From contig JALLAP010000314.1 of assembly GCA_036939355.1 (NCBI GenBank), forward strand, positions 1 to 25,208: a DNA stretch of 25,208 nt, given 5' to 3'. The DNA comes from Thalassiosira profunda (Eukaryota; Bacillariophyta; Thalassiosirophyceae; Thalassiosirales; Thalassiosiraceae). Below the pieces are notes generated by a model, which saw only the letters and a list, made by a program, of their open reading frames with translations, did not search any database and had not been told where the DNA came from. The translations under genes were made by a program, and so were the position numbers. Below are positions 4,999 through 24,998 of this stretch, one piece after another. Position 1 is the first letter of the stretch. The number at the start of each line of letters is the position of its first letter.

Positions 4999-5196
4999 CT
5001 TATCTTGTGTGGTAGGAGAGGGAATATTATCATCTTGGGGGGGAGGAGGCAGAAAACAGGGGTATCGTTGGGTTACAGTTCACAAAATGATTGACCCGTG
5101 AAGTAGCGCAGATACTTGCTAGCAGGCGAAAATAAAAGACAACGCAAAGGTTATGTACTGTCGGGCAGCCAGTTAAGACTCTTTGCCGTGCAATAC

Positions 5197-6579: not shown

Positions 6580-7238
6580 TGCCAGTCAAGAGCGTTGTTG
6601 TGCAGGGAGAGCACGCCTGCGCAGTTGGAGGTGGTCAGCGCTTCTTCAGGCGGGGGTGAGGTCAGGTTGGGAAGAAGGTTAAGCAGCGAGATCTTTTCAG
6701 GCGCCAAAAGTATCTTTTTCGGCCTTTTCCGGATCGAGATTCCGCCAGTTCCCCCTCGTGAGAGCGCCACTCGTCGTGCTGTCCGCCGGACACGGCATCA
6801 GTGGCGGCAAACCAACACCACCGGGAGGTGAGCAGATCGGCGTGCGAGCGGTGAGGCGGCGGTGGGGGCGTTAGTTGCAAACCGGGTGGGCGGGCGGTGC
6901 CACGCGGGATTCCCTTGACACAAGATGTGAGCGTGATGAAATATTCAGCTACTACGTGAGAGATTGATGTTTGCGCGGCACTTGTTGCCCGAGCGGGGCC
7001 CGGACTGTTCCTCGATGCGCCGCTGCCTCGTTCTTGTCTTCATTCTTTGTGCGAGAGACAGCTGTGGAACATATATTATCAGGGTGTCTCCTCTCCTGAT
7101 GGGAGCCATCACTATCAGCGTGATTGTTTTTGCAACGCGATATGCATCTCTGACACCTCCTGGGCGCGGCCACACGCCATTTCCACTTTCTTTGCAGATA
7201 ACTGCTATTGTAATCGATTGTGCTCGAACGGGGGCACG
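6580..7238. promoter_or_regulatory. Divergent upstream region of the TPR gene and truncated RdRP gene
   Basis: 659 bp. From about 6655 rightwards it matches 13670-14237 upstream of the complete RdRP gene; shared blocks include AAGCAGCGAGATCTTTT, ACCGGGAGGTGAGCAGATCGG and AAGATGTGAGCG. The part next to the TPR gene is not shared. It probably contains the RdRP promoter and 5' UTR. Short open frames here are not conserved in the second copy. Confidence 0.5.
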
Positions 7239-7846
7239 ATGGACGGTGCTCAGCGCGGGATGAACGCCCTGTCCCTCTCCGCGCCCGTCGCCTCCGATGG
7301 TTGTGGAATTTCAGGGGAACCCGACGCGCTGTCCAAGCTAGAGGAGCGCCGCGCCGCCCGCAATCGAAACAAGCCCGTGTGGTACCATGCGCTGCGGGAC
7401 GATGTGCTGCTCCGATCCTTGGTGGGGCAAGGGGAGGGCGACCCCGCCGTGCCAGTCGATCGTGCCTCGCTGTACCCTCCCGCAGTTGCAAATGGGCCCG
7501 GGGAAGTGGTGGAGGACGAATTGCAGGTGCCTACGTTACGGGGATCGGCGGCGCGCCTTCCCTACGCCATTCGGTTCGTGCTGGAGCTCCACCTGTTGGA
7601 TAATGCAATCGTGGAGATTGAGCAGGTTCGGTGCCCTGACAGCGAAGCCAGCGAGCAGCGGGAGCGGCGCGTTGAAGAGCTGGCCGTGGGGGGCAGGAGG
7701 CTGGTGGTGGCGTTCGTTCAGCAAGTGATACCTCCACTGCTGGAAGTCGAGTGGGGAGGGTTGGACGTCGACAATTTCGCCCTGTCGGAGCTGTTCGCAG
7801 AGGCCCTCCGGCCGAAATTGCGTGGGGTCCAGCAGGCGGTCAAGGA
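6655..7846. repeat. Tandem segmental duplication, right block, copy 1
   Basis: It aligns with about 13670-14845: the RdRP promoter region and the first 608 nt of RdRP coding sequence, with no indel inside the coding part. Similarity ends at CAAGGA, five bases before the N at 7851. Confidence 0.85.
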
Positions 7847-7850: not shown

Positions 7851-7851
7851 N
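7851..7851. other. Single-N assembly join between duplicated units
   Basis: One undetermined base separates the cut-off RdRP fragment from the cut-off secreted gene. Unlike the three other Ns, it is not flanked by direct repeats. The right flank (7852) matches 841 exactly, in the intron of the secreted gene. Probably a scaffolding gap of unknown true length. Confidence 0.75.
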
Positions 7852-8570
7852 ACATGATGTGAGCAAAGAAGGAGAGGAGCGAGATAGGCAGAGTGCACAT
7901 CAAGATTGGACACGTCCGAGTGCAACACTCCCTGGCTCTCCAAGACGCAAACAGAGGACAGGCGAGGGCTAGAGGCGCACACAGGATGGCGCTTGCCTCT
8001 TTGAGCTGGAGCTGGAGGAGGCATGCCCAAAGAGCTCGCGCCTCAGCTGCGCGAGGCCCAGCATCGTCGGTGCGCGCCCTCGGCCACAGCGTCCCCCGAC
8101 GCCCGTCGATCTCCCGCGAGGGCGGCCTACGCCGAGCCGCGCATGGCACGACATGCACCAACACCGGCTTTGCAGGGTGCATGCATCAAGACGCGGGCGC
8201 GGCGCCTCCGGCCGTCGGCCTCGGACGAGACGCGCGTGCACAAGATGTGCACAAGATGCAAACAGGCCGCTGTCGGCCGATCGGCGAGCACATGCGCCCG
8301 TGAGACATGCCGTCGGGGGTTCTCGGTGCATGCGAGGCCCCGTCGGTGCATGTGAGCCCCCCTCGGCGGCCCTTGCGCGCCACCGCTCCGACGCTCCCCT
8401 CCTCTCGACCGACGGCCGCCGCCGGCCCGTCGCCGCGACCGTCCCCAAGCAAACGCCGCGCCTCCGTCGTTCGAACTCACCGCGCGGGCCTCCCGGACCC
8501 CGATGTGCGCGCCCGCGGCGGGGGCGAGGAGGGCCCCCGCCGCGAGCGCGGCCGCGCGAAGGAGGCGCAT
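7852..8570 (-). CDS. Secreted cysteine-rich protein, copy 2, 5' exon and partial intron only
   Basis: Exon 1 (8570-8481) encodes the same 30 residues as 1519-1430, with signal peptide MRLLRAAALAAGALLAPAAG. Its donor is a canonical GTGAGT, where copy 1 has GTTAGT. The following intron continues leftwards to the N at 7851 and stops about 20 bp before the position of exon 2 in copy 1, so the body of the protein is absent here. The intron carries the 17-bp palindrome at 8236-8252 and many TGCATG/GTGCAT words, as in copy 1. The rest is lost at the gap or truly deleted. Confidence 0.5.
8236..8252. repeat. 17-bp inverted repeat GTGCACA-AGA-TGTGCAC
   Basis: Third exact occurrence, at the position corresponding to 1175-1191 in the duplicated intron. 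It is followed by a second partial unit (ACAAGATGCAAAC). Confidence 0.6.
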
Positions 8571-9968
8571 CCTTCGTCTCCTGAGTGCCCGTCGGGGGTG
8601 TTGCAAGTTGCAAATTTGAAGCTCTCGACGGCAGTGGGCGGCGGCGGCGGCGGCGGTGGAGGCTTAGGGAGGCTTTCACGTGAACCGTCGGGGCACAATG
8701 AACATGGACGCTGTTGGGTTGCGCGGCGACGACGATGCATGCCCGCCAACCGAGCACCATCACTTTGTTTGACGCGGTGATACAAGACCTCTGCATCGAC
8801 CGTTGCAAATTTGAAACTCCCCGCGGCGGGAAAAGGAGTATGTAGGTGTGCGTAGGAATCATACAGCGAAATTCAAACCAATTCAAACCGTTACACGTAA
8901 GTGGGTCGATTTGAATTAAGTATGAATTCCCACGTTACAAAATGATACTGTCCCAACGCACCGGTGATGCAAGAGAGTCTCTACTTTGCGAAAGAATATC
9001 AGGTACGGTACTAGCACTGACCTGCCTTCCAAACTGCCACGTTTCGCGAGCGGCGATGCACAAGTATTAGTCATCGCAGCGGTACTCGAATTCAACTTCG
9101 TGCCGGTACAAAACACGTCAGTGCGTCACTTTTGAGGGCGTTTTGAATTGTGGGTTTTCCCTCCAAAAGAGAGAAGTTGAGAAGCGGCTTGCATGCCCCG
9201 GCTACCTAGAGAGATACCATAAACTCCCACACGAAGATAGATCTGCAAGTCAGTTCCCTCCAATTAATTGAGAAGCGAACCCCCAACACCCAACACCAAG
9301 TCTCATCTGTCAAGTCAGTTCCCTCAACGTCTGTCCGACCCCGATGCCGATGGCGAAAAGGAATGCATTATTGTATTGTTACGCTGTGGTGCACACACAC
9401 AATAAAACACAAACAGAGCAAAGTGCAGGTTGCAGCCACAGAGCAGAGGCCACATCATATGTACAAATAACTGGCCACCACCATCAGTTGCAATTTGTGC
9501 ATCCAGCACCAAAATTGACACACTCAGCCAATTTGAGGTTCATTTTCGCGTCCTATCTCGACTGCTAGTGCACTCACAAAACGCCATCTCGTGTTGACCA
9601 CAAAGTGCCCCCTCAAAAGTGAGTTTTCGGTGCAATGTGGACTGCACTGCAATATGCAACTATTGACCAAATACTATGTTAGAATAATCTTCCTCTGGGG
9701 GGAGCAAACACGAAAAGTGTGTGCGCACTACTTCCTTTTTGTTTGGAACAGGGGCGTTTGATCTTCTTCCAAAAATAATGTGTATGCGCGGAAAAATAGC
9801 AAAAGGAGGGCAACGCGGTCACGCACAAGATAGGTATCCAATTTCCGAGCGCAAAAGAATGTTTCAATTCATAGTAGGTGCAAGAATGGTATGGCGAAGA
9901 TCCAGAAACGATAAGAAACAAAAAAGGAGTGCGACTGGTCAAGGTGTCATCCACAATATCTCCTCAAA
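8571..9968. other. Intergenic region between secreted gene and OMA1-like gene, copy 2
   Basis: About 1.4 kb without a supported gene, collinear with 1520-2717 but with many substitutions and indels. It contains a GGC-repeat tract near 8637-8660, the conserved TTCACGTGAA, and an A/C-rich stretch at 9390-9415. No RNA gene or conserved open frame was found. Confidence 0.55.
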
Positions 9969-11189
9969 CTATTTCTGTTCCCCTCCTCCTTTCATCAGCT
10001 GCCACTTTCGATCCTTCATCGCGTTCACCAGATGGCGCCGCAAATGCTTGCAGCTGCTGTTTGCATACTTGGCCACGTTCTCCTCCTTGCTCGCCTCCAC
10101 CAAGGCCCGGTACCGCTCCTCCGTCGGCGGATGATCGAGCTCGATCGTCAAAAACGACACTCCGGGAGGATCGAGTTTGCTCATCTTCTGAAACACCTCG
10201 ATGCCCCGCTTGGTATCGAAACATGCCATGGCGGCCAATCGAATCCCCATCTCGTCCGCGGCGCTCTCGCTTTCCCGAGAGTAGGCATTGGACACCCATC
10301 GTTTCGTCGTCGACAGCAGCGCCATGGCCTGCAGAGTTGCAATTCCTCCAAACGCCGAGAGGCCTGTGAGTATCATAATTTCCACCGTGCTGAGCACGGC
10401 CTCGGCGACCGTGCGCTTCTTCACGTGGCCGAGCAAGAGGTGCGACGTTTCGTGTCCCAAAACCAAAGCCATCTCGTCGTCTGAAGATATGAGCTGATCC
10501 ATCATGGCCGTGGTTACAAAAATCTTGCGCGGCAAAAGTGCCGTGACGAAGGCATTGGGCGCGGGGGAATCCAACAACACGTAAGTCCACTCCCCTGTCA
10601 TCGTCGCGGCGGCCGCAGCCACCGGGTTCTCGAACAGCTCGTCCAGCCCTGCAATTTGCTCCACATTGTGTGGATCCTTTGCCATCTCCGCCGGAAGGCC
10701 GGCGCGGATCTGTTCCAGCTCGGTCTCTCGCTCCTCTTTCGCCATCTTCCGCGCCGCCCGCACGATGCTCTGCCCCACCGTCGCCACTCTATACAAATCC
10801 GGATCCCGGTGCGCGAGCGCCAGCGACTCTTTCAAATGCCCATCCCGGATCATCCGCGTTTTCGAGACGTCGCCGGGGTCAGCGCATCCGGCGCTTTTGC
10901 AAATGGACTCCAATATGGCCCACTCCTTCTTGGACGGGTCGGCGAGGGCGTCCATGCATCCCAACTGGTAGCCCACCGCGCCGACGCCGGCGACGAGGGC
11001 GGGGATGCGGAGGTACTTGGCGAGAGCGGATAGGGCGCGGTGCGAGGTGGAGGAGGAGGCGCCCGCCCGCGATGACGAGGGCGACGCCGCTGAATTTGCA
11101 AAGTACCGACGGGGCGCTGCGATGGCCGAAGGGGTTATCGGCGACCGCGATGCCAGCCGCACCGAGACGAGGCACGGTCGACTCAGCAT
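9969..11189 (-). CDS. OMA1-like mitochondrial M48 metallopeptidase, copy 2
   Basis: 406 residues, single exon. The HETSH zinc motif starts at residue 246, and the ESAADEMG ligand segment is intact, so the enzyme should be catalytically competent. From HRALSALAKYLRIPALVAG onwards it is almost identical to the copy at 2718-3956. The first roughly 55 residues, the putative mitochondrial presequence (MLSRPCLVSVRLASRSP...), have diverged in sequence and length while keeping Arg/Ser/Ala-rich, acid-free composition. That pattern fits selection on the protease domain and loose constraint on the targeting peptide. The start is the ATG at 11189, aligned with the ATG of copy 1; the longer upstream frame lacks an ATG and is not conserved. 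Divergent from the six-Cys gene at 11497. Confidence 0.9.
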   Translation of the reverse strand: MLSRPCLVSVRLASRSPITPSAIAAPRRYFANSAASPSSSRAGASSSTSHRALSALAKYLRIPALVAGVGAVGYQLGCMDALADPSKKEWAILESICKSAGCADPGDVSKTRMIRDGHLKESLALAHRDPDLYRVATVGQSIVRAARKMAKEERETELEQIRAGLPAEMAKDPHNVEQIAGLDELFENPVAAAAATMTGEWTYVLLDSPAPNAFVTALLPRKIFVTTAMMDQLISSDDEMALVLGHETSHLLLGHVKKRTVAEAVLSTVEIMILTGLSAFGGIATLQAMALLSTTKRWVSNAYSRESESAADEMGIRLAAMACFDTKRGIEVFQKMSKLDPPGVSFLTIELDHPPTEERYRALVEASKEENVAKYANSSCKHLRRHLVNAMKDRKWQLMKGGGEQK

Positions 11190-11496
11190 CTCTCCCTTTG
11201 CAGTCTGTCGAGTGCACAAGTTGTGCAGAATCTTTGCATCAATGGCGGGCGCGCTGCGAGGGAGCGAGGAGGGTGGGGTGCGATGCGCGGGGGACCCAGC
11301 GGGCCTGCGGCCTCTGTCTCTGTGGCGGGTGGCGGCCGCTGTGCCTGCGCCCGCCAAGAGCGCCAAGAGGTGCACCAACTTTATTTGTTTATGTCACTGA
11401 ATTCTACACAAAGTGTACTGATTCCAGTGTAGACCTTTCTCGACAGAGTGAACGCTTGGCATTTCAAGCGTCCCACCAACACCCAACACCACCAAC
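11190..11496. promoter_or_regulatory. Divergent promoter region, OMA1-like / six-Cys repeat gene, copy 2
   Basis: 307 bp, about 100 bp shorter than in copy 1. A degenerate form of the 17-bp palindrome (GTGCACAAGTTGTGCAG) lies just upstream of the OMA1-like ATG. A CACCAACACCCAACACCACCAAC stretch precedes the six-Cys start and resembles the CCAACACCAACGTC leader of copy 1. Confidence 0.4.
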
Positions 11497-12051
11497 ATGA
11501 AGCTCACTGCCGCCTTCGCCGCCGTCATCGCTGCCTCGGCCCCCCTCTCCTTCGCGGCCGCGGCGCCCGAGGAAACGACGCCCAACCTCCGCGCCTCCGC
11601 CTCTGCCTCCGAGCGCTTCCCCATCGTGGGCGAGGACGCGAGCGACACCTGCGTCGGCGCCTACCGTCGCAACTGCTTCTACCGGAACGGCAACGAGGAC
11701 GCCAAACCCTGCTGCAGCGGTTTGCGGTGCGAGTATACCGGTGAGCACGCCAACCCCAACGCGCGCGGCGGCGGCTCGACCAATCCGACCAACTTTGTCT
11801 GTGTGGTCTCCTCGGACCGCGAGCGCTCCGCCACCGACAGCGACGGAAGCCCCGACGAGGACGACGGCGGCGACTGCGTCAGCGCGTACCATCGCAACTG
11901 CTACCTGCCGGGCGCGAACGAGGAGGGAAAGCCCTGCTGCAATGGTTCCAGCTGCAACTACCTGGGCGGGACGGCCCGGGCCCGTCAGGGCGGGTCGAAT
12001 AATCCTGCCAACTTCGTGTGCGAGGCGGATGCCGTGGCGGCGTTCAGCTAG
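11497..12051 (+). CDS. Small secreted protein with two six-cysteine (knottin-like) repeats, copy 2, intronless
   Basis: 184 residues in one exon. The signal peptide is MKLTAAFAAVIAASAPLSFA. Two repeats carry the same C-x7-C-x11-CC-x4-C...NFVC framework, separated by the acidic Ser/Asp linker. The paralogue at 4362 has a 73-nt intron immediately after the codons for PEE; here PEE runs straight into TTPNLR. The second repeat and linker (about 250 bp from 11794) differ from copy 1 at only two or three positions, while the first repeat has many differences. This patchiness suggests gene conversion or uneven selection. Function is unknown; secretion is inferred from the signal peptide. Confidence 0.85.
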   Translation: MKLTAAFAAVIAASAPLSFAAAAPEETTPNLRASASASERFPIVGEDASDTCVGAYRRNCFYRNGNEDAKPCCSGLRCEYTGEHANPNARGGGSTNPTNFVCVVSSDRERSATDSDGSPDEDDGGDCVSAYHRNCYLPGANEEGKPCCNGSSCNYLGGTARARQGGSNNPANFVCEADAVAAFS

Positions 12052-12137
12052 CTTATCTTGGGAGAGGTGGGATCATTCTGTGATCGCTTGGCTCTGGGGG
12101 TCAGGCACCGCTAACGTCTGGCACAAGATATATAAGC

Positions 12138-13490
12138 TTAGCGCTTCTTCGTTCTACTCTTCTTCTCCTTCTTAGGACTCTTTTTCTTCTTGTCCTTCTT
12201 TTTTGACTCAGCATATGTGCAAAACTCCTTATGGGAGGGAAAGTCGAGAGCTTGACACTCTGAGCCGCAGTAGTATGGATGGCCGTCAGGGTTGCAGGGG
12301 CAGTGAGATAGCTTTGCACCGGGCGTTCCGTCGTCACCCACCACTTCCCCTTCTGGCTTGTTGCAGTAATCGCACCTCAGCCTGACATGTTCTGTAGCCA
12401 AAGAGGGAATTGGCATGTCGAACGTCCTTGCAATCCTACGAAGCTTCTTGCCCAATTTCCGCTCCGCATATTCCGAGTACAACTTCCAACAATCTAATGC
12501 ACCCTCATTGCCTTTTATTTCTTTCATCCGTTGCGTTTGGAGAACTTCCCAGATAAACTCCTTATGCTTCTGGGCCTCTTGCTCGTTCAGGCTTGGGCGC
12601 ATTTCTGAAGAGTCAAGCCTCGATTGGATGTACGCCTCAACTGAATCCCACCGACGACGATCAGTTCCGCCTTCAACGACCACATCACTATCGGCCACCA
12701 AGAAGGTGAGAGCAGGGCGAGAAGAGTAATCTTCTACCAGCAGTCCCAGCTCACACGCAACTTTCCACATCCGCGTATCAAAGCACAGTGCAAGATCATT
12801 GAAACGGTCTACATCCACTAGGCTGCCTCGAAATAGCCCGGATAGCTCCAGCACACCCGAACCGATGCCTTTGTATCGATTTCCTCTCACGATGTCGACA
12901 TAGCACTCATGCACGCGTTCCTCGAAATCGTCTTTGGGAACATCCTGAAGCTTGTACGAGGCAGTGAATCCATGCAGGGGATGCCAGCCAAATCGCTTGA
13001 TGATCGCGGCGAGCAAGAAGGCCCAATTTTTGGCCGGCCACGTCCCCATGCCTCGCTTCCAGGGCAAACACGCCACCTGCGCCGCGGCCCCGACGCGCCC
13101 TCCGCTGGTCGCGGTAACGGAGAACCCGATTCCCATATTTCCCCGCCTGTGCTCGAGGTACCGCACCACCTGCAATTGATACCCGCTCGTTGGGGAGCCT
13201 GCTTCGAGCGGCGGGGCCCGGTCGCACACGATCACATTCATCGCACAGGAAAGCACCTCCCTCGGAGGGGCCTCGTCCTTCGGCAGCCGGCGAGAGGCCG
13301 GGCGCCCGGCCTCGCGCCGGAGCCATTGCATTTGTCCCGCGACTGTGGCCTCGATTGCGGCCTGCTCCGGGAAATCTTCCGGCCGCGGCGCCTCGCCCCG
13401 TTCCTGCATCGCCTTAAGCGATTTCGTTTCCTTTTCCATGGCGGCCAAGCACTCCCTGGCTTCGCGCTGCTCGTCGCACTCTGGCTCCAT
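12138..13490 (-). CDS. MYND-type zinc-finger protein
   Basis: 450 residues, single exon. A MYND-like zinc finger occupies residues of about 373-424: CDYC, then HCPC, YYCGSEC and HKEFC, giving the C-x2-C...C-x-C...C-x3-C...H-x3-C ligand order, with an unusually long first loop. A Lys-rich tail (KKKDKKKKSPKKEKKSRTKKR-like, last 25 residues) could be a nuclear localisation or RNA-binding segment. MYND fingers are protein-interaction modules. The N-terminal 370 residues (EVLSCAMNVIVCD, RRGNMGIGFSV, FGWHPLHGF) are not recognised. The start is the ATG at 13490; an in-frame TTG two codons upstream is not used. It lies in the slot held by the TPR gene in copy 1 and diverges from the RdRP-helicase gene. 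Confidence 0.8.
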   Translation of the reverse strand: MEPECDEQREARECLAAMEKETKSLKAMQERGEAPRPEDFPEQAAIEATVAGQMQWLRREAGRPASRRLPKDEAPPREVLSCAMNVIVCDRAPPLEAGSPTSGYQLQVVRYLEHRRGNMGIGFSVTATSGGRVGAAAQVACLPWKRGMGTWPAKNWAFLLAAIIKRFGWHPLHGFTASYKLQDVPKDDFEERVHECYVDIVRGNRYKGIGSGVLELSGLFRGSLVDVDRFNDLALCFDTRMWKVACELGLLVEDYSSRPALTFLVADSDVVVEGGTDRRRWDSVEAYIQSRLDSSEMRPSLNEQEAQKHKEFIWEVLQTQRMKEIKGNEGALDCWKLYSEYAERKLGKKLRRIARTFDMPIPSLATEHVRLRCDYCNKPEGEVVGDDGTPGAKLSHCPCNPDGHPYYCGSECQALDFPSHKEFCTYAESKKKDKKKKSPKKEKKSRTKKR

Positions 13491-14237
13491 CCTCAACTAA
13501 CAATGAACAATCCACAAATCAGTGCCATCCGGGAGGTTGATGGGCTGGAGGTGGGTGATGGGCTAGAGGTGAAGGCGCATGCGTCTATGTCTGGCGCTTC
13601 TAGCAGTGGATGGTTGGAGGCATGCAGCAGATCAGCATGCGGTGAGGTGTGCATGTTCATGTTGTGTGTTCAGGTTGGGCGGAAGCTACCTAGTTGAAGC
13701 AGCGAGATCTTTTTTATCTTTTTTTTTTCGGCCTTCCCGGATCAGACGAGTTTTCCGCCCTGTGTGAGTAGCCCCCATGTCGTGTGTCAGCCGGGCACGG
13801 CATCAGCGGCGCGGCAAACCAACACCAACCGGGAGGTGAGCAGATCGGCGTGCGAGCGGTGGCGGCGGCGGTGGGGGCGTTAGTTGCAAAAAGGGGGCGG
13901 GCGGGGATTCCCAGACAATAAGATGTGAGCGTCATGAAATATTCAGTTACTATTGTGATAGTGACTGATGTTTGCGCGGCACTTGTTGCCCGAAGGGGCC
14001 CGGGCTGTTCCTCGATGCGCCGCTGCCTCGTTCTTTGTGCGAGAGACAGCTGTGGAACATAGGTATTGTATATTATCAGGGTGTCTCCTCTCCTTGTGGG
14101 AGCCATCACTATCAGCGTGATTGTTTTTGCAACGCGATATATGCATCTCTGACACCTCCTGGGCGCGGCCACACGCCATTTCCACTTTCTTAGCAGATAA
14201 CTGCTATTGTAATTGATTGTGCTCGAACAGGGGCACG
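13491..14237. promoter_or_regulatory. Divergent upstream region of the MYND gene and RdRP-helicase gene
   Basis: 747 bp. From about 13670 it matches the region upstream of the truncated RdRP copy. Shared blocks are AAGCAGCGAGATCTTTT, the GGGAGGTGAGCAGATCGG block, AAGATGTGAGCG with GAAATATTCAG, and a long conserved block ending at GGGCACG before the ATG. Indels break any extended upstream frame. The left 180 bp, next to the MYND gene, are unique. Confidence 0.5.
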
Positions 14238-14845
14238 ATGGACGGTGCTCAGCGCGGGATGAACGCCCTGTCCCTCTCCGCGCCCGTCGCCTCAGATGGT
14301 GGTGGAATTTCAGGGGAACCCGACGCCCTGTCCAAGCTGGAGGAGCGACGCGCCGCCCGCAATCGAAACAAATACGTGTGGTACCATGCACTGAGGGACG
14401 ATGTGCTGTTCCGATCCTTGGTGGGGCAAGGGGAGGGCGACCCCGCCGTGCCCGTCGATCGCGCCTCGCTGTATCCTCCCGCAGTTGCAAATGGACGGGG
14501 GGAAGTGGTGGAGGATGAATTGCAGCTGCCTACATTTCGGGGATTGGTGGCGCGCCTTCCCTACGCCCTCCGGTTTGTGCTGGAGCTCCACCTGTTGGAT
14601 AATGCAATCGTGGAAATTGAGCAGGTTCGGTGCCCTGACAGCGAAGCCAGCGAGCAACGGGAGCGGCGCGAGGAAGAGCTGGCCGTGGGGGCCCGGCGAC
14701 TAGCAGTGGCATTCGTTCAGCAAGTGATACCTCCACTGCTGGAAATTGTGTGGGGAGGGTTGGACGTCGACAATTTTGCCCTGTCGGAGCTGTTCGCAGA
14801 GGCCCTCCGGCCGAAATTGCGTGGGGTCCAGCAGGCTGTCAAGGA
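13670..14845. repeat. Tandem segmental duplication, right block, copy 2
   Basis: Partner of 6655-7846. The coding portion (14238-14845) aligns without gaps over 608 nt. The ATG-to-ATG offset between copies is 6,999 bp. Confidence 0.85.
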
Positions 14846-17800
14846 GAAGAGGGAGGCCTCGTTCGATAGAAATGACGTGGCACGCGCCATGGATCAAGCA
14901 AAGCAATGGCTCGGTAGGGTCGTGGAGCTCTGCGGCGAGGAGCGGGACCTCACGTCGGAGTCCCCGGGTATCAATCTCATTCAGCGACGGGCCCGGTGGC
15001 CGTACGCCGAGTACAGTTGTCGCTTCCTCACCAATGGAGATCTGATCCCAACCAATTACGAGATGGTGAATAGCCACACATACTCCGCTGAGGACCAAAA
15101 GGGGAGACTGCGGGAGACTGGCAGCCGCCGGGGGCTGCGAGAGGGAGGATGGCTTGTTCGTGACCGGTTCTGCCGCGTTGCCAATGGTTTTGATGTGTGC
15201 GAACATCTTGTAGATTGGGTCGGCTCGGAGCCGACGCTCTGCGGTAGGAGCTACAGGTTCCTCTTCGATAAGGGAGTTGGAAGCGACATGAAAGTGTGGT
15301 GAGTCCACTCTTGCTCAACGCATGTACACAGATTTGACCTTCGACCGACTGCAGCGTTTCCTTCTCGGCGTTTTCTTTCTCAGGCTCTTCTCGGAGCACG
15401 CCAGAGGAGCGAGCACGAGTCGACCGGAGCTCGATGTCACCAGGGATGGGTTCTTGGCCGGACTTGGCAACCTGCAGAATGTGTTGCTAAGCAAACTCGG
15501 CGATCGCATCAGCCTTGCGTTTACGGAGACGTGGCCCATTGCNCCTGCAGAATGTGTTGCTAAGCAAACTCGGCGATCGCATCAGCCTTGCGTTTACGGA
15601 GACGTGGCCCATTGCCAGCTTATCAGATGATCAGATCGTGGCCATTCCAGGTGAGTTGTCTGGATGCTAAATCTGCACCCTTTCCTCAAGCAACTGACGG
15701 CATTTCCTCCATCTACAGACATTGTCCGCAATGGCTACGCTTTCAGCGATGGAAACGGCATAATGGGGATAGAAGTGGCACGCTCAATACAGCAAGCGCT
15801 GGGCCTGAAAGAAATACCCGGTGCGGCGCAGATAAGAATTGGCGGTGTGAAGGGTATGCTATCGCTCAATTGGGATTGGGAGAAAACAGACTGCATTGGC
15901 ATACGTCCCTCGCAGGTCAAATTTTGCTCCTCCCATCGGATTTTGGAGGTGAAAGAGGTGGCCAAGACGCACGTCGGAAGCACTCATAGACTGTTCAAGG
16001 AGGCTCTGCTGGTGAGTTTGACGTGCCGCGGCCATCCATCGGACCTTCTCTCGCTGTGCTGACCTTGCCCCATTGCTTCCGTCCCCACACAAAGGTCATG
16101 GATCACCTCGGTGTGCGATGCTCGTCATTCTACAAGCTTCAGGAGAAGGCGTGTGCACAAGTGGTGCTTGAACAGGACGTGGATGGCGCTCTCGAGTTAT
16201 TTACTGCATCGCATAGTGGAAATGTCGACGAGTCTGATTATGTGCGAAATGCGGTGAGATTCTGAACACATCGTTTTGGCTACCTTGGTACATTTGCTGA
16301 TCAGTGCCGTTGTTCGTACACCAAAAAGCTTGACACTGGTGCCAAAATGGATGGGAAACAATTCACGACGCTGGAGTTAGAGGCCATGCAAGAGAAACTG
16401 GAGACTGCCAGAGACAAAGTCAACATTGACCTTAAATGGTGAGGTCGAGTGTTGCCTCTTTTGCTGCTTCTCGCAGTGCATGTCTCACACGTTCCCTCTA
16501 GCTCCGTGATGTTTGGCATAGTCGACGAACATGACGTGCTCGAAGAGGATGAGGTATTGGTTTGCAACGGCCGAATAACGGGGGAAGTGCTTGTCCTGCG
16601 CGCGCCCTGTATGTTCCCGGGAGACATCCAACAAGCTCGCGCCGTTCCGCGCAAGCCAGATACCGCCTTTGCTTGTCTTGAACATGTCATCGTGTTCAGC
16701 TCGAAAGGCGAAAGGCCATTGGCGGACACGCTTGGCGGCGGTGACCTTGATGGCGACAAGTATTTTGTTTGTTATGAGCAAGAGCTCGTTGAAATGGCAA
16801 CCCCGGTGTTGCCCCACGATTTCGGAACCCAGAATCCAACTATAAAGGAGGAGGCAGATATTGCGACGGCGTTCTGCGCGCCATCCGAGCATGCGGCTCT
16901 TACGGTTCCGGCTGTCGAAGACCAGCTGCGTGTTCTCGGGGAGTTCATTAGCGAAGGAAACTTAGTTTCTCATACGGCGGATGCGTGGCTGCGAATGGCG
17001 GATAAGCTCGGCGTTTACAACGAAAACGTGCAAAGGCTTGCTGCGTTGCATCAGCGTAAGTTGCAAAGGCCAGACATATTGCGTCACATCACGAAGACGG
17101 AGCTCCGCTAAAACTCACCTCCCTTCTCCTCCGGCCAGGCGCTCTCGATTCGCGAAAGGGTTACAGTAATATTGATCCATCTGAGCTCTCGTTCTTGTAC
17201 AACGTCTTGGAGATGATGCCAATGCCTCTTTACAAGCATCGATCATCCAATCGCAAAGGGCCCATATCGTTCCTCGGAGTTCTATGGGAGTTCTGGTGCT
17301 CGAATATCAGATCGATCAATACTCTCCTTGCACGCCGCTCCAATGGACATCCATCCCAGCCATCGCTCGCCTTGGAATCAACGGTCAAAGAAAACGAGCA
17401 AGTAAGGGCGTTGACGATAACGGCGATGAAAAATCTTGACTGGGAGAAAGACAAGAGCTACCGGTATTGCGTCACATGCGGAGGCAGAAAAATCAGTACC
17501 TCGATGACGGTGTGTGCTGTGTGTGGATGTGAGTGGGCTTGTCCTGGGCCGTGTTCACACAATCATTGGAAGCTATGTTTTGGCATCCGATGGCAAGAGA
17601 GTGGCGTGTTGGTGGATGACGCTGCGGATGATGATTTCTCCACGACGAGCAGCTCTGCTCCGAGCCCACTCGGATCCTTTGCTGGTTCTAGAGAAGTCAC
17701 TGAGTCGTTCATGGGTTCCAGAGAGGTCACTGCTGATACTGTCTCGCTGACGACATCGATCGATGAAGCCGAGATGAGTCTCATACCTGAAGACCCGCAA

Positions 17801-20800
17801 GATGCATTGGGTTTTTTGATTGATCTAGTGTTTGGGGTCAAGCCAACGCCAACTTTGAACAGCACTTCAATCGATTGGCGTTTCCTAGATGCAAAGCGCG
17901 ACCTTGAAGCAATGAGACAAATGGTGCTGGTTGAGTTTTGTACGGGCTTGAAAGAGGCGCAAAAGAAGTCTGGAGACCGAACTGAGTCACCTCACATCTA
18001 CGACGTTTTTGCGTTGGAGCCCCGCGTCAATCGTGGAAACATAACCTTGGCAGTTTGTTTGCGAGATGACGGGCGATTCCGAGGGCAAGGCAAGAGTGGC
18101 TTTTTGATGTGGTACGATGGGCGCAGTGGCGAATTGGTCGGGTACCCGATGACACCGTGCTTCCATCGGTTTCGAGTAGCATCTCTCTCAGGAACGAGCC
18201 GCATACTCGAGAGCCTGAGCGTATTGGAAGGCACGCTGATGGATAGCGCAATGAGGCGCGATGCAGACGCGTTTGTGAATGCTAGCACGGAGACGCTTCT
18301 GTTGAAGCCGGAGCTATACTCTGCACTGCTCAATACCTCCCAAAAGAAAGCGGTCGCAACTGTGTGCGACCCTGACTTCGACAGAGGCTTCTTCATTGTG
18401 CATGGGCCACCAGGTACGTCTCCATCGTGCTATTGCTCGAAACTATTCGTCGTCGTTTTGGTAGTGATCTGACAACTGTTTCCCGCACACGTCAAACAGG
18501 AACCGGGAAGGTAAGTAGTTCAATCGCTTTCTCGTTATGTTATGTCATTTCCGTAGGTATACATCTCAATGCTTCATTGTGTCGCTCTCATCAAATAAGA
18601 CGGTGGTGAGTTGTTATTCCAATGTGGCTCCGCCTAATGATGCCTGTCTACACAAAACTCACTATTTGTCATGTACTGCACTAGACTTTGGCCGCAATGG
18701 TCGCATCGACAGAGGAGGGCATTGTCACCGCGCCATCGAACGCAGCAGTGGCGAACGTGGCTATCAAGATTTTATCGTTCAGCCAGACATTCGATGTCAG
18801 AAGCTTGGTAGTGCTTGGAGAGAACTGTCACAAGTCGATCCACTTTCTGAGCCCATCCCATCGGTGGCGGCGCTTTCTCGCATTCCGCGAGAAGCACTGG
18901 AAGAAGCGCGAGCAAAAGGGCGCGACGGAGGTCTTATCAGCTTTTGCTGCTGACTTTGGGCTTGACCTATCGGCGTTGATCAACAGCAAGTTGCCAGTGA
19001 AGGAAAACCTACTGAACGGGTTCGCCGAGTGGCTCAGATTACCACGCACCAACACTATTCCTCTGTCGCTTGAGGCCATCCAAAAGCATTGTCCAAAAGT
19101 CGACGACAGCTCCAAGGGGCAGCAGGCGCTTAAGAGAATGCTCTCGGAGGCTAAAGTCGTGCTCTGTACTTTGAACACAGCAGGGTCAGGCTTTCTTCGC
19201 GAGGCAGTGGGAGGGCAACATCGCACCTTTTTTCTCGACGAGGCGGCCCAGGTACCCGAGGTTGAATTCTACATCGCGACAACTTTCCCTGGCATCAGAC
19301 GAATTGTGGTAATCGGTGATCCGCGGNCCCGAGGTTGAATTCTACATCGCGACAACTTTCCCTGGCATCAGACGAATTGTGGTAATCGGTGATCCGCGGC
19401 AATTGAATGCTACAGTTATCGATCGTGACTGTGAGCACATGGGATATGGTAAGAAATGTGCAGATTTTATCTGCATGGGCCTCTGGCGGCTCGCTCACTT
19501 CTCTCCTCCAACCTTATTAGGCGACTCGTGGATGAAGAATGTCATGCAGCTCGACAGAGGAAAGGTTCATCTTCTAAATATGGTGAGTTTGATGGCAAGG
19601 TACTCGTGTTTCGCTCAGCCGTTCCTCACAGTTTACTTCGTCCCAAGCAATACCGATGCCATCCTGGCATTCTTGCGTTCTCGAATGAGCACTTCTACGA
19701 CAATAGGATCCGCTCGCACGAATCTGTTCAACGCAGAGAGCCGACCGTTGACTTTCCTATGAAATTTATTGACACAGCAACGTACGGCGAGGAAGAACGT
19801 GAAGGCGCTTCGTTTCGGAACGACTTCGAGGCATCCTCCGTGTTGTTGCTATTGAAGAAGGACAAGGATGTTCGAGGCATCCTTACAAGTACGAAAAACG
19901 CGTCAATAATGGTGATCGCGCCTTATCGTGCCCAGGTAACCCTGTTACGAAGGAAGATCCTTGAACAGAACCACCTGCGAAACGTGCGATGTGACACGGT
20001 GGACGCCTTCCAGGGGCAGGAGGCAGACGTTGTTGTGATCTCGCTTGTCCGGACTTCTTCCGTGGGGTTCACGGATGAGTAAGATTTCAGTGCGACGTAC
20101 TTCTTCGCCAAAGCATTCGCTCACCACTTCGCTTTGTTTTTGCCTTTGACTTAACAATACAGTCCCCAGCGAATCAATGTCGCACTTACGCGCTCAAAGA
20201 TGGCCCTTCGGATAGTTGGCGACCGTGAATTCTGGTGCAAGAATAGTACGTGGATTGCCAGCCTCATTTCTCATTGTCAAGAATCCGGTGCTGTGGAATT
20301 CGACGCCCGTGTCAAAGGAGGAAAGAAGAAATGGCTTGCTTTCCAGAAGCCTAAGCTATCTGCACTCCAGCACGCACTGTGGAAGGTCAACATCACTCCT
20401 CTTTTTCACCACGCCCTCAAGGGGCTGAACAAGAACGTCGCAATCAACACTGTGATTGCACTTGCACAAGCGAGCGAAAAGGATCTGTTCTCTCTTCCGG
20501 CACCCGACCAAGGGAAACCGCGGTGGCAAATGACAGCTCTGAAGGGGCACGAGTCCCAGCTGCAGGTTGTGTGGTGTGCAAAGAAAGGCTCGGAACGTTC
20601 CGGTGGACGGCCCGTGATCGAAGCGCACTTCGTGGGTAAGAAAGAGCAATGCCTACATTTCTTACAGACCCACCCAGCGCTTCCAAGAGGAGTGGCGCGG
20701 GTGAAGAGGGACCTGAGCGGTCTTTCAGTTGAAAGCGCGGACGATACGCAGGGGCAATCGCAAAAGATCGAGCTGGCTTGGACGCTTGATCAGACTCTTG

Positions 20801-23800
20801 GCAATGCAATTCTGAACGAGGTAGTCGCAGAGCTTCCACAGGGGAGCCAAGATCACTCTGCTCCGGACATCTACATACTATCTTCCTCACATTCATTCAT
20901 CCGCTGGGACGAATCTGTTAGGGCTGCTTTGACTTGGACGCTGATCAAGAGGACGTTATCCTCCTTGTCCCTCCAGTCATTCTTGAAAGCGGCTCGGGCA
21001 CGGGAAAGACCAACGTACTTTTTCAGGTAAGCGCTTTTGCAGCTTTTGCTCTTATCGCAATTCTCGCTCTGGCTTTTCTTACAGCCTCCATTCCAGCACG
21101 CCGTCGCGCACGCACGAGTGGCCAAGCATGAGAGCAGCACTCGCATATGCTTCATTACTGGTAAGAAATGCGCCACGCCTTCGAGCGCAAATGGCTTTGG
21201 CTCATTGTTTTGTTGTTCGCTGCCGCCCCCTTCTAGTGTCACCCCGCCTTCGACAGGAGATGGACACACGTTATTCCAACGTAAGGAAAATGGAGACATC
21301 GCACCTCCCTCCCATCAAATTCTACTCTCTGCTCGAGCTGCTGGGCGACCTGCTCTCTTTCATCAAGATGGGCCACATCAAAGTGTCAGAGATATGTAGA
21401 TTTGCCGATTATGTGAACGCCAGGAAAAGCCACGAGCACCTGCTCGCTGATGCGAAGGAGGCAGAAAGTGAGTAGCTTTGCCACACGCAAATACGCATCG
21501 TCAATGCTAACCCCTAATTGCCGCCAGATGAGATCGGAGGAGTGATCTTGGGTAGCCTTGATTCGGCGAAGGAGCACAGGGCTCTGACACGAGAAGAATA
21601 TATTGCTACCGGCCGCAGCTACGTCGAAAACAAAAGCGATGCCGGCCGGCAGAAGCGGCNCACGAGAAGAATATATTGCTACCGGCCGCAGCTACGTCGA
21701 AAACAAAAGCGATGCTGGCCGGCAGAAGCGGCACGACATATACACGGAATACGAGCGCTACCGCAACTGGAAGCGGTCCAATGATGAGATGGATATCAAT
21801 GATGTGGTGCTGGAGCTAATAATAAAGCTCCAAGTCGCTCGACAAAAAGGCTACAATGGCGAGCAAGCAGGTGGCTGGATACAAATGTTTCACGCTGTCT
21901 ACCTCGACGAGATACAGGATTTCAGCTACGCGTCGATTTACCTCATTTGCTCGATCGCGGGATGGTCAACGTTGCATTGGGTATTTGCCGGCGACACTGC
22001 TCAGATGATCAGCCCAGGCTGCTCGTTCAAGTTCGATGGACTGAAGGAGGTCCTTCTCGCTGTCAAGCCTGGAATTGAACGCCAGGTAAAGGACGTGATC
22101 AAGCTGACGCGCAATTATCGCGTCACGCAGGATGTCTTGGAGTTCTCGAACAGCATTCTAGCAGTGGCCAAGCAGTCGTTCCCAAAGGACATTCGATACC
22201 TCAGGCCTGAAGGTGCATTTCTATTGGCATGCTTTTGAATGCATCTTCACTTGACCAACTGACCTCACGCCTCACCTCGCATCAGTTGTAATGAATGATT
22301 TGGGAACGAGGGTGCGCATTTGCAAGTGGAACAAAGCTTTAGCGCTGGCTCCAAAGTTCAGTGCTAAGCAGGCGCTCATCTACTCCTCGACAAGCCACCA
22401 ACAGGAAACGGAGCGAGAGATGGCGAACTGGCTCCCGGATCATCCCTTTGTGTTGACTACGCTAGAATCAAAAGGCCTGGAGTTTGATGATTGCGTCCTT
22501 GCATTTGACATGGATAGGCATGCATGGAACATGACTGCGGGCAATGTCGCAGCTTTGCGACTGCTCCGCGAGCTGTACGTCGGCATCACTCGAGCGAAGC
22601 GGCGCGTTGTCCTCTTGTGCAACAATAAGCGAATGAAGGAATTCTTCCTTTCGCTTCAAGGCTGCAGCATCGAGGAGACAGATGCCCACGTTGCTCTTCT
22701 GGAGTTTGACTCGGAAACCTCGAAGGAGGAGTGGCTGAAAAAGGGAAGGGAACTTTTCGACGACGAGCAGTACAAGATGGCTGCAAGCTGCTTCAAGAAT
22801 GCCGGTGAGATTTGATAACAGCATTGGTGAAGTGTTGTCCTAATCTTGCTCACAACACTGTCCTCTTTTCGCTCCATAGGCAACTTTGGTCACTTCAATT
22901 GGGCGCTTGGTCTTCACGAGGAGACGGCACTTCGAGACGCAGAAAGCGCAAAACAGTCCTACCGCCGATCAGCGCATGCATTCTTTGAGCTAGGTGATCA
23001 CGAGCATACCCTGATCCTTCTCGTCAAAGTGAAAGAACGGCCGCCTTGGAATTCAGACGATGATCACATCTATGAGTACAGCATCGCTGCACTTCCGGAC
23101 TTCTTCCCTCGCGATCAAGTCATCGAATTCGCTCTGCTGCGCAACAGATGGCAAGAAATTAGTGTGGATGACGTAAAGGGGTCACTGCGATTCTTTATTC
23201 AGCACAGAGGAAGGGCCGAGCTCCATCAGATCGTTGCTTCCTGCCCCAAAGATGATCTGCCAGAACTAGGCGTTTTGGCTGCCGATTATTATTTCGCACA
23301 GCGAGATTATTTTGATGCCACAAGGCTCTACTTGGAACAGTCGCATGAGTACGAACAGGACTTTGCAAAGGCCGAGGTGGCAACGGATCTTTTGATAGAA
23401 TCAAAGTCAGAAGAGAGCCTAGATGAAATCGCACAGCTCTTGATGTGGTCGAAAGGCGAAAAGGCTAGCGAAGCAGTGTCGAAGGATGGCAACACTTTCC
23501 TCCTACTGCGTCTGTATGAGAACCCGCTTGAAGTTGCCAAGTCAATACGCGCGGCAGAAGCCCTGCGAAAGTTTGGGACAGCTGTTATCATCTCCGCATT
23601 CGACAGATCGAACACCCCGAAAGAGGAGCTCCACCGTTTCAGTCGAAGCAGCTTTGCAGTTGAGGTGGAACAAGCCCTTGCCGCAAGATTTAGCGACAAT
23701 CTGATCGAGGTCGTTCGATGGTACCTCAATAATGATGACAAGCGCAACGCGGAACTATTCGCAGCCGAAAACATGGATCAGTGGTCTCAGGCGGAACTGC

Positions 23801-24998
23801 TAGGCATGGCGAGTGTGAAACTCGATCCCATTGGGCTCGTTGAGGCGGCCGATAGCAAGGGTGCCTTGGTACGAATGGATGTCGTCTTTTGTGCATCTGA
23901 TCCTCATCACTAACTGGTTCATTTTGTTCGCAGATTACATTGCTAAGGGTCTATCTCAGCGGTGGAACATTCGATCTGCAAAGGGCGACGCAGGCGTCGG
24001 ACAGAGCCCTGGCATCCGCGGAGAAAGCAGAAGCCAACTTTGAAGGCTTGCTTGTCGAGTGGAATGGGCGCAAGGACGATAACCGCGTGAAGAGGATGAT
24101 CGAGCGAAAACAGCCGAATCCACCCGGGTCGAAAACAGTTGTCTTTCTTCGCCTCTTCTGGGAACCAGAGCAAAGCAGTAGACAGCTGCAGCGCTATTGC
24201 ATGGATTGGTTTGGCAGCCAGATTGTTGAGTGTGCAGTCTCCAGGTTGTTAATCAACAATCCTCCGCAAAGGTACGAAGTGCTGTCCAGATTCGATACGC
24301 AGGCGTTTGAGCATCTGCGCCCCCCTCCAGCAGAGGAGCAGGGTGTCCAACACGACAGCACCAGGTTTAGGCAAGGTGATAAGGTCATTTTGCATGGACT
24401 TGCGAGTGCACTAGCGCGAGCCCTCAATGGTCAAAGAGGTACAATTTTAGGCTGGCTGCAAAATGAGCAGAGATATGGCGTGAGGCTTGACGACGGAGTG
24501 GAGAAAAGTGTGCGTGCCTCCAACCTCAGGCTAGATGATGACATCTCTGGCAGCAACGACGATGACGGTGATAGCGATGAGGAGATATCAATCTCTTCCG
24601 ACGAAAGCAGCAGCAGTGGTAGCGTGCCAGAGTTGATTGGGCGTCGCGGCAAGAGCGACAGCAGCGCCTCCAGCAGCGAGGGCGACTCCTCGGACACTTC
24701 CTTTGATCGCGGAAACGACTCCGACAGCTCTTCCAGCAGCGTCCCTCCGCTGGCGCGGAAGGATAATAGTTCGAGCGACGAAGATGACATCCCACAGCTC
24801 TTGAGTCCGAATCAACAGAGCAGCAGCAGCTCGTCGGACGAAAGTATTCCTGGCCGCAGATTGAGACGGAGAGCGGCGCAAGGCCGCGGCGGCAGGTCCG
24901 GTAGGAGCGAGGGCGAAGGGAGGGGCAGAGGCCAGGGAGGAGCGGGAACGGCCACGGGAGCCGGCGGCAAGGGAAAGGGACGAAAGAAGCGCAAATAG
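14238..24998 (+). CDS. RdRP - SF1B (UPF1/SEN1-like) - SF1A (UvrD/TRANK1-like) tri-modular fusion protein
   Basis: About 3,041 residues in 20 exons: 14238-15298, 15384-15650*, 15719-16011, 16095-16253, 16305-16438, 16502-17055, 17139-18413, 18500-18510, 18600-18605, 18685-19448*, 19521-19582, 19648-20078, 20163-20820(?), 20922-21026, 21085-21160, 21237-21467, 21528-22212*, 22286-22804, 22880-23868, 23934-24998. Asterisks mark exons containing a 72-bp assembly duplication plus N; omitting 73 bp from each restores the frame, and the total is then 9,126 nt (3,042 codons). All introns are GT-AG, mostly 51-89 nt, and every junction keeps family motifs in frame. The protein should make RNA from RNA templates and unwind or remodel nucleic acid; a role in RNA silencing is inferred. 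No signal peptide. The only doubtful junction is 20821-20921. Two separate adjacent genes are the alternative, but the clean in-frame intron at 17056-17138 argues against that. Confidence 0.85.
15384..17055 (+). other. Cellular RNA-dependent RNA polymerase domain (two-barrel, QDE-1/RDR family)
   Basis: Residues of about 350-798. Family landmarks in order: RNGYAFSDGNGIMG (the RNGYxFSDGxG motif), IRIGGVKGML followed by IGIRPSQVKF, GEVLVLRAPCMFPGDI (the GxVxVxRxPCxxPGDI motif), HVIVFSSKGERP, and the catalytic LGGGDLDGDKYFV with DLDGD at residues 695-699 (16743-16757). The three aspartates that coordinate magnesium in this family are all present, so activity is expected. The class is the eukaryotic silencing polymerase, not a viral right-hand RdRP. 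The first 350 residues show no domain I recognise. Confidence 0.92.
15471..15615. repeat. 72-bp direct duplication flanking N at 15543 (assembly artefact)
   Basis: 15471-15542 and 15544-15615 appear identical and are separated by one N. They lie in exon 2 of the RdRP-helicase gene. Collapsing them yields TETWPIASLSDDQ in frame, so this is an unmerged contig overlap rather than a biological repeat. Confidence 0.9.
17468..17554 (+). other. Zinc-ribbon-like CxxC pair between polymerase and first helicase
   Basis: Residues 909-937 contain CVTC, 11 residues, then CAVC and further cysteines (GCEWACPGPC). Spacing of this kind binds zinc in many RNA-processing proteins. It is followed by a Ser/Thr-rich linker with a repeated GSREVT word. 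Zinc binding is inferred from cysteine spacing alone. Confidence 0.5.
18500..18510 (+). other. 11-nt microexon inside the Walker A codons
   Basis: GAACCGGGAAG sits between CAAACAG and GTAAGT. Joined to the upstream phase-1 exon it completes G-T-G-K of GPPGTGKT. Without it the P-loop lysine is lost, so the exon is strongly supported. Confidence 0.85.
18600..18605 (+). other. Possible 6-nt microexon encoding Thr-Val
   Basis: ACGGTG lies between AAATAAG and GTGAGT. Including it gives GTGKTVTLAAMV, as in UPF1 (GKTVT). Skipping it gives GTGKTLAAMV, also in frame and functional-looking. Flanking introns of 89 and 79 nt fit the gene's norm; one 174-nt intron would not. Confidence 0.55.
19255..19399. 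repeat. 72-bp direct duplication flanking N at 19327 (assembly artefact)
   Basis: 19255-19326 and 19328-19399 appear identical around one N, between helicase motifs II and III. Collapsing gives VVIGDPRQLNATV without interruption. Confidence 0.9.
20922..22640 (+). other. SF1A helicase domain, UvrD/TRANK1-like
   Basis: Motifs in order: FDLDADQEDVILL leading to Walker A ESGSGTGKTN (GSGTGKT 1867-1873), FITVSPRLRQ (motif Ia region), DEIQD (2083-2087), GDTAQMISPG (motif III), LTRNYR (motif IV), LTTLESKGLEFDD (motif V, from 2244), LYVGITRAKRRVVLLC (motif VI, 2282-2291). DEIQD with FAGDTAQ and ESKGLEFDD matches the eukaryotic UvrD-like group typified by TRANK1 rather than bacterial UvrD itself. All ATPase residues appear intact, so the chain carries two potentially active helicase motors. 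Confidence 0.88.
21588..21732. repeat. 72-bp direct duplication flanking N at 21660 (assembly artefact)
   Basis: 21588-21659 and 21661-21732 differ at one base (GATGCC versus GATGCT, synonymous) around one N, in the second helicase. Collapsing restores the frame through GRQKRHDIYTEY. The mismatch may be allelic or a read error. Confidence 0.88.
22880..24530 (+). other. Helical C-terminal region and SH3/KOW-like segment
   Basis: Residues of about 2350-2885. The first 340 residues are alpha-helical in character with TPR-like helix pairs (YRRSAHAFFELGDHEHTL, AADYYFAQRDYFDATRLYLEQ), resembling the helical arrays that follow the helicase in TRANK1-type proteins. Near 2830-2885 a short segment reads FRQGDKVILHGL, NGQRGTILGW, RYGVRLDDG, VRASNL, a pattern seen in small beta-barrel (SH3/KOW-like) modules. 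Exact domain limits cannot be given by eye. Confidence 0.5.
24531..24998 (+). other. Disordered acidic Ser/Asp tail and basic Arg/Gly C-terminus
   Basis: Residues of about 2887-3041. Runs such as DEEISISSDESSSSGS and SSSEGDSSDTSFDRGNDSD contain many S-D/E casein-kinase-2-type sites. They are followed by a basic tail with repeated RGGR/GRGRGQGG words and a final KGKGRKKRK. The basic end could bind RNA or act as a nuclear localisation signal; that is inferred from composition. Confidence 0.7.

Follow-up and report, generated by a model that had tools for sequence, protein, structure and literature searches.

A gene of the diatom Thalassiosira profunda predicted to encode an RNA-dependent RNA polymerase fused to two superfamily 1 helicases

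Background

Eukaryotic RNA-dependent RNA polymerases (RdRPs) have been described in the company of helicases, as separate proteins and as fusions. In fission yeast the RdRP Rdp1 forms the complex RDRC with the helicase Hrr1 and Cid12 (passage in PMC2965749). Co-precipitation with EGO-1, another RdRP, is reported for the superfamily 1 (SF1) helicase ZNFX-1, of which Hrr1 is an ortholog (passage in PMC9276528), and the production of double-stranded RNA (dsRNA) by QDE-1, for which DNA is usable, needs RPA and a DNA helicase (passage in PMC2950127). To judge from structure titles, QDE-1 structures with a DNA template exist. RdRPs with superfamily 2 (SF2) helicase domains are described from Dictyostelium, Peronosporomycete oomycetes, Hydra and Nematostella (passage in PMC4791657). 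RdRPs have been reported in diatoms, in passages that make no mention of a fusion such as the one considered here (PMC3155517, PMC4247016). We analyzed a 25,208-nt stretch of the Thalassiosira profunda genome (assembly GCA_036939355.1, contig JALLAP010000314.1, positions 1 to 25,208, forward strand), called the window below and used for all coordinates unless a contig is named. It contains a gene predicted to encode an RdRP and two SF1 helicases, of types SF1B and SF1A, in one chain. A reading of this DNA made earlier from its letters alone (the sequence-only reading) had proposed this gene, and its remark that RdRPs fused to Dicer-type SF2 helicase domains are known agrees with PMC4791657. 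Proteins found in searches carry P numbers.

Gene model and reading frame

The gene was read exon by exon on the plus strand. It has 19 introns of 51-101 bp and encodes, in order, an RdRP, a zinc-finger-like linker, an SF1B helicase, an SF1A helicase and a C-terminal region (Table 1). The sequence-only reading put the product at about 3,041 residues; with these introns removed and each one-N assembly join counted once, that model gives exactly 3,041 and no stop. Alignment with P0001, an environmental protein of 2,749 residues, upheld its reading frame and overturned two of its splice sites, the acceptor at 21084 and the donor at 20821. Moving the acceptor to 21096 changes FQPPFQHAVA to FQHAVA, as P0001 has. 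The donor is probably at 20842, because the 21 nt between the two candidate sites encode VVAELPQ, a segment that is matched in relatives (TMLELPD in P0001, IIDKLPQ in P0002) and survives only with the later start. The protein has 3,037 or 3,044 residues depending on this donor, and the frame is open either way; with the start at 20842, GT donors are present in 18 of the 19 introns and AG acceptors in all. The intron proposed to take out an apparent stop in the RdRP region was borne out, for P0001 has ELHQYTLDARKH where the window has ALHQ-RALDSRKG, and removal restores the P0001 frame. The N-termini of P0036 and P0038, compared by eye, resemble that of the window protein, including the first residues, which supports a start at 14238.

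All catalytic motifs that were checked are intact in the predicted protein: DLDGD (16743), GPPGTGKT (18404), DEAAQ (19237), QYRCHP (19648), GSGTGKT (20991), DEIQDF (21906) and ITRAKRR (22585). The exon that joins the end of the RdRP to Walker A of SF1B is stop-free over its 425 codons, and this one uninterrupted exon argues against two adjacent genes. Together with the colinear P0001, the same domain order in P0017 (see below) and the intact motifs, it supports the earlier claim of one RdRP-SF1B-SF1A gene. The fusion is thus very probably one gene of a conserved family and not a sequencing accident.

Table 1. Predicted features of the fusion gene and its surroundings, in window coordinates
Feature	Positions	Strand	Details and basis
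RdRP-SF1B-SF1A fusion gene	14238-24998	+	20 exons, ~3,040 codons; stop-free spliced frame, colinear relative P0001
Cellular RdRP domain PF05183	15231-17175	+	catalytic DLDGD at 16743; Pfam 6.6e-84
Intron	17056-17138	+	GTAAGT...CCAG; takes out apparent in-frame stop at 17109-17111
Linking exon	17139-18413	+	1,275 nt; end of RdRP, Cys/His (zinc-finger-like) cluster, conserved linker, first part of SF1B Walker A (GPPG)
Zinc-finger-like Cys/His cluster	17468-17578	+	in linker; no Pfam match above cut-off
SF1B helicase core, UPF1/SEN1 type	18329-20226	+	Pfam AAA_11 6.7e-28, AAA_12 3.6e-45
Micro-exon in SF1B Walker A	18500-18510	+	11 nt; required for GPPGTGKTVTL, uninterrupted in P0001
Second micro-exon	18600-18605	+	6 nt, after the 11-nt micro-exon
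Probable intron between SF1B and SF1A	20842-20921	+	GG donor; alternative 20821-20921 has GT donor
SF1A helicase core, UvrD/PcrA type	20922-22640 (end approximate)	+	Pfam UvrD-helicase 7.5e-12; PcrA 1pjr 2.6e-6
Conserved C-terminal region and acidic/Ser-rich tail with basic end	22641-24998 (start approximate)	+	P0001 alignment, 37% and 41%
Assembly join	15471-15615		single N (15543) flanked by 72-bp overlap copies, identical
Assembly join	19255-19399		single N (19327) flanked by 72-bp overlap copies, identical
Assembly join	21588-21732		single N (21660) flanked by 72-bp overlap copies that differ by 1 mismatch
Truncated tandem copy of first 608 coding nt	7239-7846	+	7000-7846 has 92% identity to the 5' end of the gene

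The RdRP and the two helicases

The spliced protein was scanned against Pfam in three pieces covering residues 1-2820 of 3,037, a scope that holds for all Pfam results on it. PF05183 scores 283 bits (cut-off 23.8), and a profile built from four family members has PDB hits to QDE-1 and the plant enzyme RDR2. The fold is that of QDE-1 and RDR2. The RdRP part is accordingly of the QDE-1/RDR type of eukaryotic RdRPs, as the sequence-only reading held when it called it a cellular RNAi-type RdRP with DLDGD intact, and is predicted to synthesize RNA on RNA templates. No Dicer-type SF2 helicase lies upstream of it: residues 1-866 match the RdRP alone, up to an E-value of 1. A viral origin was considered and rejected, as none of 38 pattern-matched stretches found with the RdRP profile in viral contigs was confirmed as a relative. 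The RdRP relatives P0029 and P0032 have the dsRNA-binding motif PF00035, for which the window protein gave no match.

SF1B enzymes translocate 5'-3' and SF1A enzymes 3'-5'. The first helicase had been described as complete and UPF1/SEN1-like, a description that fits its AAA_11 and AAA_12 matches and the presence of the SF1 motifs. Its best PDB matches were 8ftm and NAM7/UPF1/SEN1; the top one had an E-value of 8.8e-41, and a ZNFX1 chain came at 3.4e-19. It does not appear to be an ortholog of ZNFX1/Hrr1: in a tree with long branches, the ZNFX1-type proteins P0012 and P0014 are not part of the group with the window protein. The second helicase scores 45.9 bits for UvrD-helicase (cut-off 23) and 26.1 for UvrD_C (cut-off 25.6), its motif II, DEIQD, fits DExQD, and its nearest PDB relatives are the PcrA/UvrD DNA helicases. 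The sequence-only reading had called it UvrD/TRANK1-like. The Pfam and PcrA matches agree with the first half of this name; the second half is loose, since TRANK1 lies across a long branch in a midpoint-rooted tree. No ankyrin match and no nucleotidyltransferase match was found in residues 1-2820, nor did the C-terminal region match any Pfam family up to residue 2820, where the scan ended.

The linker between RdRP and SF1B is 33% identical to that of P0001 over 257 residues and can also be aligned with those of P0015, P0016 and P0028. The Cys/His pattern of its zinc-finger-like cluster is kept in P0001 and P0015, mostly kept in P0016 and P0028, and absent from P0017. The structure prediction consulted is of P0028 rather than the window protein; predicted local distance difference test (pLDDT) values below 50 at its residues 519-660 and 703-795 leave the linker and the cluster without a usable model. 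By eye the Cys/His pattern is MYND-like. The adjacent gene (12138-13496, minus strand) encodes a MYND zinc finger, and the likeness to this neighbor is possibly coincidence.

Relatives with the same or partial architecture

The sequence-only reading had suggested looking for the same domain order in related genomes. P0001 and P0017 carry RdRP, SF1B and SF1A in that order. A single alignment with P0001 covers window residues 159-2832 at 40% identity; by parts, identity is 39% in the N-terminal region, 43% in the RdRP, 33% in the linker, 46% in SF1B, 40% in the next linker, 53% in SF1A (the best-conserved part), 37% in the C-terminal region and 41% in the tail. P0017, from the diatom Seminavis robusta, is annotated at 3,379 aa. 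Like the window protein it has a UvrD-type SF1A as its last domain, a Ser-rich tail and an alignment that reaches the C-terminal region; unlike it, it lacks the zinc-finger-like cluster in its linker and has a longer N-terminus. Its database name is 'polymerase alpha-associated DNA helicase A', from which the RdRP is absent. Among the matches listed, open-licence literature pairing Seminavis robusta with RNA-dependent RNA polymerase dealt with an unrelated topic.

Searching with residues 250-2400 gave 14 proteins, five of which have SF1B plus a UvrD-type helicase and one of which (P0001) has the RdRP too. When the RdRP part of P0001 was the query and proteins of 0.55-1.75 times its length were considered, there were 13, with RdRP plus SF1B in six and all three parts in two (P0001, P0017). 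A profile of four RdRP parts found 14 proteins, including further partial family members, in a length-limited search that scored the candidates sharing most words.

Several of these relatives are irregular at Walker A of SF1B. P0015, which is 93% identical to P0001 over the RdRP region, deviates there from the family sequence, P0016 has extra residues, and P0028 terminates; these sites lie at or beside introns of the window gene. P0001, in contrast, reads through all three parts without a break. This pattern suggests that the former are genomic predictions and that P0001 comes from spliced RNA. The simple explanation would then be that one mRNA codes for the three enzymes together, although the source of P0001 is labelled just 'jgi'.

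Partial versions of the architecture occur elsewhere. The Agaricomycete proteins P0022 (Phanerochaete sordida) and P0024 (Coprinopsis marcescibilis), and also P0023, resemble the window protein in having RdRP and SF1B in one chain, the RdRP first (by domains in P0022, by alignment in all three), but they have no separate SF1A and their SF1B is of another branch. The plant proteins P0004 (Selaginella) and P0005 (Euphorbia) share the succession of SF1B and UvrD-type SF1A but have no RdRP, and their SF1A lies across a long branch.

Trees and origin of the fusion

The RdRP tree holds 24 of 31 profile-matched rows (P0018, P0031, P0033, P0035, P0036, P0038 and a paralog on contig C890 were left out because their coverage was too short or their span too long). 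In it, 11 rows of the fusion family group with P0037 at support 100/99. Fungal RdRP-SF1B fusions stand elsewhere, and one clade uniting them with the fusion family is not rejected (p 0.22). The SF1B tree, with 25 of 26 matching rows (P0015 was too short), has six family rows together at 100/100, inside a 96/93 group that includes SEN1, plant rows and two rows from the same genome; the SF1B rows of the fungal fusions stand apart from it. A single clade of fusion-family and plant SF1B is not rejected (p 0.23), but one of fusion-family and fungal-fusion SF1B is rejected (p 0.0024), which indicates that the RdRP-SF1B fusion, judged by its helicase partner, arose at least twice. That helicases of two branches have been joined to RdRPs, in this family and in Agaricomycetes, suggests that the two activities belong together. 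In the midpoint-rooted SF1A tree (10 of 11 rows; P0001 was removed by the span filter and hence is unplaced), a long branch separates the fusion family from TRANK1, fungal and plant rows.

Assembly joins and tandem duplication

Three assembly joins, which the sequence-only reading does not mention, lie inside the gene (Table 1). Five of the six distinct Ns in the sequence examined for them are single Ns flanked by 72-bp repeats, and given this recurrence we read them as a trait of the assembly, in which an overlap was left in twice. Each join adds 73 bases to the deposited letters, which would break the fusion frame if counted. The stretches from the RdRP motif to SF1B Walker A and from SF1B motif VI (20182) to SF1A Walker A are without any join, so at these two junctions the domain order is independent of the joins.

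The window also contains a tandem duplication of about 7 kb (841-7846 against 7852-14845), with 81-91% identity in its main blocks. The upstream duplicate breaks off partway through the first exon of the fusion gene, at the N at 7851, an N without the 72-bp overlap. Between the 608-nt coding copy and the gene there are 43 differences; third codon positions account for 26 of these, as would fit a copy once under constraint. Cys-rich open reading frames (ORFs) at 4438-4998 and 11452-12051 have repeated CVSAYHRNCYLPG...KPCCNGSSCNYLG-like units, and the latter has a signal-like start.

RNA-silencing and other genes of the same genome

The assembly comprises 21.8 Mb in 1,366 contigs. RdRP matches number eight, on five contigs, two of them within the fusion gene. 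The large RNA polymerase subunit was matched on two contigs. Since three nuclear RNA polymerases are expected, the assembly is probably incomplete. Tandem RNase III was found in single ORFs of 1,337 and 1,595 residues; the long ORFs L030 (19-4029, minus strand, contig C178) and L031 (5031-9815, minus strand, contig C746) are similar and have this arrangement. L030, the one scanned, has no DEAD helicase or PAZ domain in Pfam; the two would be unusual Dicer-like proteins.

Two further RdRP arrangements occur in this genome. On contig C1069 a 743-residue ORF (L025, 881-3109, minus strand) contains RNase H (PF13456, PF00075) together with the beginning of an RdRP (PF05183), and a similar second copy (L026, 6444-8021 and 5272-6549, minus strand) has RNase H and RdRP in two overlapping ORFs. 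This predicted fusion is a hint that RdRPs of this genome may use RNA:DNA hybrids as substrates. On contig C82 (L029, 1787-4485, plus strand), with a similar copy on C149, PHD and CXXC zinc fingers closely precede RdRP exons of the same strand, and may form one chromatin-reader-RdRP gene with them.

Light-harvesting genes gave 32 matches, and the PDB relatives of one include fucoxanthin chlorophyll proteins; both results fit a photosynthetic alga, probably an ochrophyte. A silicon transporter was not matched in the assembly; the control genomes were likewise below the cut-off.

Proposed role

The explanation that we favor overall, given a probability of roughly 0.6, is that this nuclear gene encodes a self-contained dsRNA synthase in which the motors serve the template of the polymerase. 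The RdRP, being intact, would copy transcripts into dsRNA. The motors would strip proteins, structure or hybridized strands from the template and pass it to the active site, a covalent version of partnerships that are split elsewhere (Rdp1 with Hrr1, EGO-1 with ZNFX-1, QDE-1 with a DNA helicase), and the product would supply the Dicer-like proteins with tandem RNase III that this genome encodes. Cooperation of RdRPs and helicases is hard to test while the partners are separate; a natural single chain makes their coupling testable in one purification. The fusion also enlarges the little-known RNA silencing machinery of algae.

Several observations weigh against such a synthase. Of the Argonaute domains, Piwi had no match in this probably incomplete assembly (one control genome was positive), and neither PAZ nor ArgoN was matched there or in the control genomes, so that a canonical RNAi pathway would be no more than putative here. 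The SF1B is of SEN1/UPF1 type in both the tree and the PDB comparison and not of ZNFX1/Hrr1 type, which makes the parallel with RDRC one of analogy. Finally, P0002 and P0003 are SF1B-SF1A proteins that start past the RdRP, yet stand in or beside the fusion rows of the SF1B tree; P0002 is an MMETSP transcript protein marked complete, on a 10.4 kb contig with 3.3 kb outside its frame. In these two models the RdRP can be absent, split off or missed.

The motors might instead act on RNA:DNA hybrids or transcripts of single-stranded DNA: a SEN1-type and a UvrD-type motor would expose RNA or single-stranded DNA at conflicts or damage, and the RdRP would make it into dsRNA. We regard this as unlikely but worth keeping in mind. 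It fits the grouping of the SF1B with SEN1-type and plant rows, the PcrA/UvrD affinities of the SF1A, and the RNase H-RdRP ORF, which points to RNA:DNA hybrids near RdRPs; a hybrid-directed variant of the template-preparing idea gains weight from that ORF and from motors of SEN1/UvrD character. UPF1-like SF1B enzymes, on the other hand, act on cytoplasmic RNA too. QDE-1 is a precedent, by its DNA-template structures and by its need for RPA and a DNA helicase (the latter from a passage in PMC2950127). In fission yeast nuclear RNAi is linked to R-loop conflicts, but Dcr1, according to the authors, did not act simply through R-loop removal (passage in PMC12624956).

A more specific and doubtful proposal is a bipolar-motor RNA copier, in which the SF1A would pull the template strand along the reading direction of the RdRP and the SF1B would pull the other strand, complementary or displaced, in that direction too. 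If true, this arrangement would be RecBCD-like, and the RdRP could enter duplex RNA or R-loops and turn them into dsRNA in a processive manner.

It is improbable that the RdRP is a passenger, attached in one lineage to an SF1B-SF1A pair whose core function is surveillance of RNA or DNA. SF1B-SF1A pairs without RdRP do exist (P0002, P0003 and the plant proteins P0004 and P0005), and SF1A is better conserved between the window and P0001 than is the RdRP (53% against 43%). However, the motif [GA]GD.DGD is retained in the window protein, P0001 and P0017, and the conserved RdRP blocks are long across four aligned family members, which indicates that the RdRP is under constraint. That the fusion is a mis-prediction or mis-assembly of two or three adjacent genes is very improbable: the three one-N joins, the one non-GT donor of the better model and the lack of an RdRP in P0002 and P0003 would fit it, but neither inter-domain stretch (16743-18404, 20182-20991) has a join, one exon spans the first junction, and P0001 and P0017 repeat the domain order.

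Comparison with known systems

Among the matches listed, open-licence titles and abstract starts contained no description of an RdRP-SF1B-SF1A protein, a survey that leaves most subscription journals uncovered. The earlier claim of novelty stands to this extent for the whole architecture; RdRP-SF1B alone is not unique, given the Agaricomycete proteins. The combination of an RdRP with two SF1 motors is apparently undescribed, the joining of RdRP and helicase being already known. RDRC resembles the window protein in that an RdRP works with an SF1 helicase, but its subunits are separate, Hrr1 is a ZNFX1 ortholog where the window protein has a SEN1/UPF1-type SF1B, and no nucleotidyltransferase to correspond to Cid12 was matched in residues 1-2820. 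The RdRPs with SF2 helicases likewise have both activities within one chain, but there the helicase is SF2 and not SF1, N-terminal and not C-terminal, and a single motor. The fusion described here would carry, beside the RdRP and a first helicase, a second motor of the opposite class.

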